A DNA stretch of 37,131 nt from Oscillatoria sp. HE19RPO (lineage in GTDB: Bacteria > Cyanobacteriota > Cyanobacteriia > Cyanobacteriales > Laspinemataceae), in assembly GCF_024220515.1 (NCBI RefSeq), contig NZ_JAMXOT010000171.1, forward strand, positions 1 through 37,131, read 5' to 3'. A program made the translations under genes and the position numbers. Below are positions 27,509-30,925 of this stretch, in pieces. The notes beneath the pieces were generated by a model, which was not told where the DNA came from, did no database searches, and saw nothing but the letters and a program-made list of their open reading frames with translations. Every line of letters starts with the position of its first letter. Position 1 is the first letter of the stretch.

Positions 27509-28735
27509 TACACGCTTAGGTCTTTGATGGCATAAATACAATACCGTTGAATCAGCAGACAGGTTAAAAAATTTCCCCAGTCCGGAAAAAAAAGGCATCA
27601 AGCTTCTAACCCTCCCAGAGGGGTGCGGGATCAGCATACAGTATCCTCGTCCCCCTGAGTACAATTAACCATCAGCAGGGAGGATTCGGGAAGCTGTCAC
27701 TGATAGTCCTAACCTACTATTTATTGTATTCTGGTAGAGAAAATGGAGAGGCTATGTGCCACTTGAGCAACTGGTTATGGGTTGGGGGGAAGCTGAAATC
27801 CGCTATGATTCGCTATAACCCGATGTGGGTTTGAACCCGATGATCTGTAGAGACGAGAGATTTGATGTCTTTACATTGCCTTCACCGGATATCTCCATGA
27901 TAGCGCTAGGGGGAAATGAGGGAGGGAAGGGGGAGAATGGGGATTGAGGGGGAATTCTTGACCTCTGCTGTATTTTTAGGAATTCTCGTCAGAATACAGC
28001 CCGGATTGAGGGGGAATTGCGGGGGGTTATCCAGGTTTGAAGCGGTGGAAAATTTTTGAGCGATGAGCGGTTGGCAGAAATTTGAGGAATCGATCGCTTT
28101 GTGTTCGTCTGTAGCGAGAACTTAAAATTTTAGGGCAATGGATATCGCCGGAGTATTGGGATGGATTATAGCAGATTCGGTAAAAAAATAGAGAAAATTT
28201 ACAGAAGATTTAGGAAAAATTTACAGAATAAAAGTAAAAGTTAATCAAATATTTCAGGATTTTGAGTTAAATTGCGATCGGGGAAAAGAGTACCGATTCA
28301 TAAATTGGGGAGGTAGAAACTGCTGGAATGGATTGGAGCGATCGCCAGAACGGAGGATGAGGAGTATCCGAAAGCCAGTAAGTAACTACACCTAATCAAC
28401 CGGGTTTGAGAAAATCTAGGGGAAACTGTTCCCCAGATTTTGCTCAGGATTGTCCATTCGGGAGGGCGATCTAGAAAAATCGCTAATTTAAGACTCACCG
28501 AAAACCGGGTCAAATCCTGCCAGGTCAATCGGTCTGACGCTCTCTTGAGGGAGGGGTTAACCCCTTCAGGGGAAACCCAAATTAACAAGACTTAACATTG
28601 TAAACTAAGGAATGGATCCTAATTTGCCAAATGATCCCTTAAATTAGGAAAGGCAGTGATAAGATCGAAAAACATCGCTATTCCGACCGGATTACCGGAG
28701 AGAAATAGCCTCTACCATTTTCACGAGATGTGCTC
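27509..28735. other. Intergenic region, 1.2 kb, before sir
   Basis: No convincing gene is seen. It holds a G-rich run (27909-27952), a 16-bp direct repeat GGATTGAGGGGGAATT (27941-27956 and 28003-28018) flanking a GCTGTATT/AATACAGC hairpin (27967-28000), and an inverted repeat before sir (28617-28649). The 96-residue open frame on the minus strand at 28298-28588 has no recognisable features. Confidence 0.55.
28617..28649. promoter_or_regulatory. Inverted repeat in the sir promoter region
   Basis: TCCTAATTT and AAATTAGGA are perfect 9-bp arms spaced by 15-16 bases, about 90 bp upstream of the sir start. GATAAGAT at about 28658 could be a -10-like element just downstream. The geometry suits a LysR- or Crp-type dimeric regulator; which one is not known. 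Confidence 0.35.
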
Positions 28736-30925
28736 ATGGTTCAATCCTTTACAACGACACCATCCATGACTCCTAGCAGTCAAAAAGTTTCTAAAGTCGA
28801 AGGCATCAAAGAACGCAGCAACTATTTGCGCGAACCGCTTGCCACCGAGCTTTTAGAAGATACGACTCATTTTTCCCATGATGCCTATCAGATTCTGAAA
28901 TTTCACGGTTCATATCAGCAAGATAACCGGGAAAATCGGGTCAAAGGGCAGGAAAAAGACTACCAAATGATGCTTCGCACGCGATCGCCGGGAGGATTCA
29001 TTCCACCGCAGCTGTATCTGACCTTAGAACGGCTGTCGGAAGAATATGGCAATCACACCCTGCGAGTCACGACCCGTCAAGGTTTCCAAATGCATGGAAT
29101 CTTGAAGAAAAACTTGAAAACGGCAATCCAGGAGATTGTCCAGAACATGGGTTCTACCTTGGGCGCTTGCGGAGACCTCAACCGCAACGTCATGGCACCC
29201 CCTGCCCCCTTTGCCAAACGCTTAGATTACGATTGTGCTCGCAGATATGCGAACCAGATTGCGGATTTGCTGACCCCTCAAAGTGGGGCCTATTACGAGA
29301 TTTGGCTGGATGGGGAAAAAGCCATCAGTGGGGAAGAACATCCCCAGGTGAAAGAAGCGCGGCAGCGCAATGGCAATGGGACTATCTTCCCAGATTCCCC
29401 AGACCCGATTTATGGAACCCAGTATCTCCCGCGCAAATTCAAAATTGCCATCACGGTCCCTGGGGACAATTCCATTGATATTTATTCCCAAGACCTGGGC
29501 CTGGTGGTCATTCTCGATGATGCGGGCCACCTGGAAGGATTTAACGTCCTTGCTGGGGGTGGATTGGGGCGCACCCATAACAAAGAGGAAACCTTCCCCC
29601 GTCTAGCGGATCCCATCGGGTTTGTTAGAAAAGACGACATTTACGATGTGGTTAAGGCGATCGTCGCGACTCAACGCGATTATGGCAATCGCGTCGAACG
29701 CCGTCTTTCCCGGATGAAATACCTGATCGAGGATTGGGGAGTCGAAAAATTCCGGGAAACCGTCGAAGGCTATTTAGGGAAACCATTTGAACCCTTCAGA
29801 CCCTTACCGGAGTTTAAATACCACGACTTCCTCGGTTGGCACGATCAGGGGGATGGCAAGCTGTTCTACGGGATTTCCGTGGAAAATGGTCGGATTCACG
29901 ATCGCGGTTCGTTGCAGCTTAAGACAGCTTTGCGGCGAATTGTGGAGTCCTTCAACCTGCCGATGCTACTGACCCCACATCAAAATGTGCTACTGTACGA
30001 TATTGCACCGGCACAACAACGGGAAATCGAGCAAATTCTGCAAGAATGCGGGATTAAACGGGAAACCGAAATCGACCCGTTGGTTCGCTATTCAATGGCT
30101 TGTCCTGCTTTACCCACCTGCGGTTTAGCCATTGCCGAAGCGGAACGCGGGATCCCCGGGGTCCTGGCTCGCATTCGCGCGCTGTTAAATCAAGTCGGTT
30201 TACCCGAAGAACACTTTGTGGTGCGGATGACGGGTTGTCCGAATGGTTGTGCTCGTCCCTACTTAGCTGAACTCGGCTTTGTGGGCAGATCTCCGGGTGC
30301 GTATCAAGTCTGGTTAGGTGGGAATCCCCATCAAACTAGGTTGGCTGAAACTTACATTGAGAGTTTGGCGATCGAAAATTTGGAAGCTACCCTAGAACCC
30401 TTGTTTGTGTATTTCAAACAAGAACAGCTTCATCGGGTTGAACCTGAGAGCTTTGGTGATTTTTGCCATCGGGTCGGGTTTGAAGCCCTGCGTCGCTTTG
30501 CTGCTACATATTCTGCTAATCCAAACGCTTCAATTCAAGAAATGGTTAATCAATTCTCTTCTCCCGTTAATTCTGAAAATGTCACGACTTCGGGTGCCGA
30601 ACCCATTGCGGCCTCGACCAGTTCTGAATCCTCTGCGCCGGTCACTTCCGGCAGCGATTCTCCCACGGGTGAGACTCCTGCTGCTGCGGATTCCGGTGTC
30701 CCTCCCACTCCTCCGACTCCCCCAAGTGGCGGTGGCGGTGGCGGTGATGATAGTGAAGGGGAAGATGCCTCCGGTTCTTCTCGTCCTCCCCGTCGCCGGA
30801 TTAATGTCAGCAATGAGATTTATCTCCAGCTTAAGACGGAAGCAGAGCGTCAGGGTAAGCCAATGAGTCAATTGGCTGGAGATGCGATCGATGCTTTCTT
30901 GAAAAGCTTGAGCGAACAAGCCTGA
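28736..30925 (+). CDS. sir: Ferredoxin-sulfite reductase with C-terminal ribbon-helix-helix-like domain
   Basis: The enzyme reduces sulfite to sulfide with six electrons from ferredoxin, using a coupled sirohaem and 4Fe-4S cluster. The N-terminal [20 protein letters not shown] is typical of cyanobacterial and plant SiR. The cluster/sirohaem ligands are C456 and C462 (CPALPTC), and C501 and C505 (CPNGC). The catalytic core ends at about residue 600. It is followed by a Ser/Pro/Gly-rich linker (about 605-680, including six consecutive Gly and an acidic patch), and then by residues 686-729 that read as a ribbon-helix-helix DNA-binding domain: RRRINVS strand, [15 protein letters not shown] helix, [15 protein letters not shown] helix. 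The total of 729 residues is about 90 longer than usual SiR. The reading frame also has a GTG two codons upstream. Confidence 0.95.

Follow-up and report, generated by a model that had tools for sequence, protein, structure and literature searches.

Does a cyanobacterial sulfite reductase carry a DNA-binding domain of its own, and if so, what would such a domain do on a metabolic enzyme? The question is raised by the sir gene of Oscillatoria sp. HE19RPO, which lies in the window analyzed here, a stretch of 37,131 nucleotides (contig NZ_JAMXOT010000171.1, positions 1 to 37,131 of the forward strand). The first-pass annotation of this gene proposed a complete catalytic core followed by a ribbon-helix-helix (RHH) tail, and drew a parallel with the DNA-compacting sulfite reductase of chloroplasts. 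The gene and the parts of its product are as follows:

28736..30925, + strand: sir gene (open reading frame), encoding a ferredoxin-dependent sulfite reductase (Sir) of 729 amino acids with a C-terminal RHH tail
28775..30511, + strand: catalytic core, residues 14-592 (TIGR02042; Pfam NIR_SIR and NIR_SIR_ferr)
30557..30784, + strand: disordered linker rich in Gly, Ser, Pro and Glu, residues 608-683 (pLDDT below 50 in the full-length model; length variable between genera)
30785..30922, + strand: RHH tail, residues 684-729 (Pfam RHH_5/RHH_1 over 74 homologues, PDB profile matches, AF2 prediction and fold matches)
30791..30808, + strand: predicted DNA-facing strand R686-R687-R688-I689-N690-V691, with R688 invariant (alignment columns; register from the aligned ranges of CopG and PutA)

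Architecture of the enzyme and fold of its tail

The open reading frame begins with an ATG, and an alternative GTG start is possible 6 bases upstream. The whole protein matches TIGR02042 with 999.9 bits, against a curated cut-off of 731.5, which makes it a member of the ferredoxin sulfite reductases; the match spans residues 14-592 and bears out the complete core of the annotation. The full-length AlphaFold model (709 residues, beginning at residue 21) is confident over most of the core, drops to a pLDDT below 50 across the linker (residues 608-683; 588-663 in the numbering of the model), and returns to a pLDDT of 91-94 at residues 691-729. In 140 non-redundant proteins (out of 177 tail-bearing proteins, after removal of duplicates and of 21 in which the core-end anchor is unreadable), the invariant Arg688 lies 24 to 279 residues (median 33) beyond the end of the core, whereas the stop follows Arg688 within a narrow range of 35-55 residues (median 39). 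The Trichodesmium/Okeania-type sulfite reductases (L186, L188, L195, and L237) measure 847-908 a.a. between stops and keep the tail, so that their linkers must be very long.

A profile search against the RHH families, suggested with the annotation as a check, succeeds for the family of tails, while the lone tail of the window stays below threshold. The window tail alone scores 19.6 bits (E-value 7.7e-4) against Pfam RHH_5, and the whole protein 13.9 bits; both lie below the curated (gathering) cut-off of 26. When 74 diverse tails are compared with Pfam, RHH_5 is matched by 41 and RHH_1 by 33 (E-value up to 0.1; best 7.6e-6 and 1.2e-5), and the remaining top families are mostly RHH as well. A profile of the tails retrieves 18 PDB sequences at an E-value up to 1. 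Sixteen of these (AvtR, ParG, ORF56, Omega, ParD, PutA, Mnt, and others) are RHH proteins, judged by their names; the other two are 8fje (E8) and AmbE.

Structure prediction points in the same direction. AF2 modeling of residues 677-729 alone, using the alignment of 74 tails, gives a mean pLDDT of 87.8 and two helices (693-706 and 710-728) in which most residues exceed 90. The basic segment ahead of the helices is extended and of high confidence; DSSP assigns no strand to it in this prediction of a lone monomer. In fold alignments, the tail model superimposes on the PutA DNA-binding domain (2gpe, Z 6.7, 2.2 A over 47 residues; operator complex 2rbf, Z 6.5) and on CopG (Z 6.1), and NikR and many RHH antitoxins also align, with Z values of 6-7 falling in the middling range by the tool's own scale. 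A Foldseek search with the tail model returns nothing at an E-value up to 0.001 (best 0.08, probability 0.99). Though the fold search is not decisive on its own, its combination with the sequence profile makes the predicted RHH assignment firm, and the strand-helix-helix pattern with a basic strand that was first read from the letters is confirmed by the Pfam profiles of the 74 tails, the PDB matches and AlphaFold. The CopG, Arc, ParG, and Omega repressors and the antitoxins have the same fold and strand pattern; these proteins are mostly small and free-standing, whereas the RHH domain of Sir is the tail of an enzyme.

Residue 688 is an arginine in 163 of 163 aligned rows, and residue 686 is Arg in 127 of these rows, Gln or Glu in 30, and another residue in 6. 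Among the 74 tails, a basic residue occupies position 686 in 77% and position 687 in 72%, residues 689 and 691 are hydrophobic in all 74, and the hydrophobic core is conserved as well as the basic strand. In the register read from the fold alignments, positions 4, 6, and 8 of CopG and 5, 7, and 9 of PutA, at which those strands contact DNA bases, are taken in the tail by residues 686, 688, and 690. The residue pattern looks like that of a DNA-binding RHH strand, and contact with DNA is predicted.

Distribution of the tail and selection on it

The tail is not a peculiarity of one genome. In a first search, a Sir match was found in all 39 genomes (the window's own and 38 relatives), with the tail present in 30 of the 30 loci fetched; in a second, a Sir match at an E-value up to 1e-60 was found in 138 of 292 sampled genomes of the phylum. 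Both searches together give 162 genomes with a Sir match, of which 133 distinct genomes were extracted (24 of the 35 f37 genomes and G264, G022, G028, G030, and G035 were left out), and the tail is present in 113 of the 133. The 20 tail-less genomes comprise all those extracted from f37 (11/11), f50 (3/3), f35 (2/2), and f39 (1/1), as well as 2 of 3 from f34 and 1 of 30 from f27. An HMM built from 22 related tails recovers the tail in further genomes. Five genomes (G089, G112, and G236, which belong to f28, together with G081 and G109) are of the same order and have no Sir match at an E-value up to 1e-60.

Among 80 named loci, 57 have the tail, including those of Nostoc, Microcoleus, Planktothrix, Trichodesmium, and Pseudanabaena; the 23 without it include L244 and L248, which run off their contigs, and L246, which is broken. 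Loci named Prochlorococcus or Synechococcus sp. are without the tail, while two diatom endosymbionts with genomes of 3.0 and 2.8 Mb (L212 and L222) have kept it. On a FastTree phylogeny with its long branches flagged, tail presence changes 6 times. With 20 of the 133 genomes lacking it and 6 changes on the tree, the tail is not essential everywhere. Two single assemblies (L405 of G022, and L246) have a sir that does not read through, and a contig labeled Tatlockia (L194) carries a cyanobacterial-type sir with the tail and is probably mis-binned.

Where it is present, the tail appears to be strongly constrained. Within the genus, dN/dS is 0.017 for the tail, 0.103 for the core, and 0.179 for the linker, and by these estimates the tail is under stronger purifying selection than the core. 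The conservation of the tail, the lengths of tail and linker, and the dN/dS values together indicate a domain of old origin that is maintained by selection, held on a tether of variable length, and widespread in cyanobacteria. Its presence in 113 of 133 genomes makes it possible to test when sulfite reductase and DNA came together.

The upstream region of sir and the R1 element

Two features are found ahead of the gene:

28609..28735, + strand: 127-bp block ahead of sir, almost without variation among 8 congeneric genomes; it holds the inverted repeat 28617-28649 (genome comparison)
28675..28703, + strand: R1 element (TCGCTATTCCGACCGGATTACCGGAGAGA), common to sir upstream regions across genera and to other sulfur genes; probable operator (matrix scans)

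The inverted repeat had been put forward as a site to which the enzyme might bind at its own promoter. It exists as described, and its 9-bp arms (28617-28625 and 28641-28649) are confirmed in the letters, but its role as an operator is not supported. The 127 bp before the sir start are 98-100% identical in 8 congeners, for a synonymous divergence of about 0.2 in the core, and conservation of the repeat among these congeners is not specific because it lies inside this block. Outside the genus, only its right half is matched, at a single locus (L009) among the best 60 rows. The repeat was rejected as the cross-genus element, which is instead the one at 28675-28703. The identity of the block far exceeds the need of one binding site. 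An Rfam search of the leader gives a single match (E-value 0.88) far below the gathering score, and the fold of the leader RNA (z -1.06) is not notable.

The R1 matrix scores above the 99th percentile of shuffles at 122 of 167 loci not known to be tail-less (a set that includes L244, L246, and L248, whose tails are unreadable, and 8 congeners), vs. 10 of 39 tail-less loci. Presence was called from a score of 11, a threshold set once the shuffles were known (maximum 7.0), and the upstream regions scored are also those that trained the matrix; after scrambling of its columns, it finds 0.26 out of 205 on average and at most 6, vs. 130 out of 205 with the true matrix. In 20 of 24 genomes, the best genome-wide site is the one at sir, judged by its place, and 93 of 148 genomes of the order have a match at an E-value up to 0.1.

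Sixty-eight R1 loci were inspected (60 hand-picked as not evidently known sir plus 8 fetched, with close relatives such as L348-L350 counted apart). The element precedes sir at 6 of these, a sulfate-binding protein gene (sbp) at 17, cysE at 4 (two of them divergent to cysA), and cysH at 1; it also precedes gamma-glutamylcyclotransferase-like genes (7), genes for a small membrane protein (2; the one at L275 adjoins TauE/SafE), a peroxiredoxin gene (1), and genes for TPR-like proteins (4). At the other 26, another gene or none was recognized. Family searches were run on ten proteins from 8 loci, and the remaining genes were named by reading the sequence. The representatives match the families of sulfate-binding protein, cysE, sulfate ABC ATPase, PAPS reductase, gamma-glutamylcyclotransferase, TauE/SafE, and peroxiredoxin, while the small membrane protein has no family match. 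The TPR-like protein, of 445 a.a. or more, is found repeatedly just behind R1 (L301, L313, L337, and L343).

Since R1 sites precede several sulfur genes even though the model was built from sir upstream regions only, the element is a good candidate for the operator of a cyanobacterial sulfur regulon, and it provides a handle on sulfur control in these organisms. A 2008 study of sulfur starvation in Synechocystis names candidate regulators only (PMC2491639), and no mention of slr0963 was found in the open-licence literature.

Possible roles of the tail

Two known systems bear on what an RHH tail could do for Sir. The first is PutA (proline utilization A) of E. coli, a trifunctional enzyme that carries an RHH domain and acts as the repressor of its own regulon (PMC5293562). 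Like Sir, PutA joins a redox metabolic enzyme and an RHH domain in the same chain, and the two RHH domains align. On the other hand, PutA has the domain at its N-terminus, with measured binding to DNA, whereas that of Sir is C-terminal, lies behind a disordered linker and is predicted to bind DNA; Sir is a siroheme/4Fe-4S enzyme unrelated to PutA, and no membrane switch is known for it. PutA is the closest working precedent for the Sir-RHH architecture, and Sir adds a second enzyme to this type of fusion. A sulfite reductase with an RHH domain was not found in the open-licence literature, and may be in print elsewhere. The tail is real, widespread and strongly selected.

The second system is the chloroplast sulfite reductase (DCP68/SiR), which is reported to bind and compact plastid nucleoid DNA without losing its activity, though SiR went undetected in a maize nucleoid proteome (PMC4154389). 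The parallel drawn in the annotation is supported to this extent, and an enzyme working on DNA is feasible because chloroplast SiR keeps its activity there while compacting it. The chloroplast enzyme belongs to the same family as the Sir of the window (phmmer E-value 7e-218 to maize 5h8v). The maize chain aligns only up to residue 598 and is without the RHH tail; judging from this comparison, DNA binding by the maize enzyme must use a surface other than an RHH tail, and in maize the parallel is not one by descent of that tail.

Against this background, the tail probably dimerises and tethers sulfite reductase to DNA, as a PutA-like fusion of an enzyme with an RHH domain; the dimer, the DNA contact and the purpose are inferred. 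A true RHH domain would be joined to the reductase by a flexible linker. Two tails would pair into a two-stranded RHH sheet, which would make a tethered dimer of Sir; plant sulfite reductase is a monomer. The sheet would sit in the major groove with R686, R688, and N690 facing out, and the reductase would be held on the DNA with its catalytic heads free to take ferredoxin and sulfite. Such an arrangement might serve to tether the enzyme to the nucleoid, to control sulfur promoters, or both. Direct support exists for the fold class (by profile and prediction), the conservation of the tail, its strong purifying selection and its near-restriction to Sir in the genomes searched.

The RHH fold may also serve for dimerisation alone. 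Known proteins of this fold are dimers, and the hydrophobic core of the tail is conserved as much as the basic strand, both of which would suit a module used only for dimerisation or for docking a partner protein, with no DNA contact. However, an invariant arginine with basic neighbors at the predicted DNA-facing strand answers no obvious need of dimerisation, and a linker varying from 24 to 279 residues (core end to Arg688) fits tethering better than a rigid assembly. A role limited to protein contacts is considered unlikely.

A more specific proposal accepts DNA contact and makes Sir a trigger enzyme of the PutA type, in which the tail would be a sequence-specific reader of R1 and would link transcription of the sulfur genes as a regulon to the reduction of sulfite. 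Of the traits of PutA, Sir has the enzyme and the RHH domain in one chain; R1 is conserved at sir, yet it is kept in tail-less genomes. Of 158 rows with the tail, 113 have R1 ahead of sir, and 62 non-sir R1 loci include 17 sulfate-binding protein, 4 cysE, 1 cysH, and 7 gamma-glutamylcyclotransferase-like genes. It also follows residue 686 at first sight, being present in 114 of 127 Arg rows, 0 of 30 Gln/Glu rows, and 4 of 6 others; when counted on the tree, however, this correlation comes down to 4 changes, with a single independent pair where the branches are well supported, and is not significant. Moreover, 10 of the 36 rows without the tail keep R1 at sir, six of these scoring 28.5-39.7, and the best R1 match is at sir in 7 of 10 tail-less genomes scanned (three of these sites being part of the model). 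Weaker matches in tail-less genomes lie at peroxiredoxin genes (G203, E-value 0.014; G120, 0.14; G211, 0.19) and at a gene whose sequence reads as that of a sulfate-binding protein (G265, E-value 0.06). The tail and R1 mostly change independently on the tree, and pairs that differ in the tail are mostly alike in R1.

The reading of R1 by the tail is weakened by this retention and by the lack of joint change, and the trigger-enzyme proposal is an improbable one. Since several tail-less lineages keep R1 at sir, some other protein most likely reads the element, at least there, and the tail is unlikely to be the only protein that does so. Part of the Gln/Glu-686 group has a different element upstream of sir, R2 (of the type TGTCACATTTTTTAAAGAATTA; L085:2837-2866, L112:2836-2865, L225:2835-2864, and others), whose best match is at sir in 8 of 8 genomes searched, their own sites having built the model; none of 22 weaker R2 loci read (E-value 0.019 or more) was recognized as another sulfur gene. 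In its boldest form, the proposal would make Sir a master sulfur regulator across cyanobacteria: the tail would read a CCGACCGG-type operator at sir, sulfate-uptake and cysteine-synthesis genes, its specificity would shift with residue 686, lineages losing the tail would have passed the operator to another regulator, and the nucleoid role of plant SiR would be an echo of an older habit. This wider scheme is very doubtful.

A search of 59 genomes finds the tail on Sir, and other matches at an E-value up to 0.001 only in frames of 45-153 a.a., which resemble antitoxins and other small RHH proteins; the tail is thus nearly restricted to sulfite reductase in the genomes searched. Such short frames would be the source if sir had fused by chance with a gene for an antitoxin-like RHH protein and the tail now had no function. 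Retention in 113 of 133 genomes, a dN/dS of 0.017, and a narrow tail length behind a variable linker speak against this reading, which has next to no probability. The slr0373 family and other stand-alone cyanobacterial RHH proteins show weak profile similarity to 33 of the 74 tails (E-value up to 0.1); unlike the tail of Sir, they carry no sulfite reductase and have other residues at the strand.

Stand-alone relatives were also sought in genomes whose sir is tail-less. A free-standing copy of the tail has no significant match within up to about 3 kb on each side of sir at 40 loci (best E-value 0.75). Among 8 tail-less genomes searched for a stand-alone RHH replacement, 6 have matches at an E-value up to 0.01, of which the best (2.3e-5) is not as strong as a Sir tail. 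The genome of the window itself also encodes an RHH protein of 136 a.a. (open frame; L063) that is weakly similar to the tail. In addition, a 201-a.a. frame in G010 (L404:609-1211) has no Pfam match, and its C-terminal end closely resembles the RHH tail of Sir.
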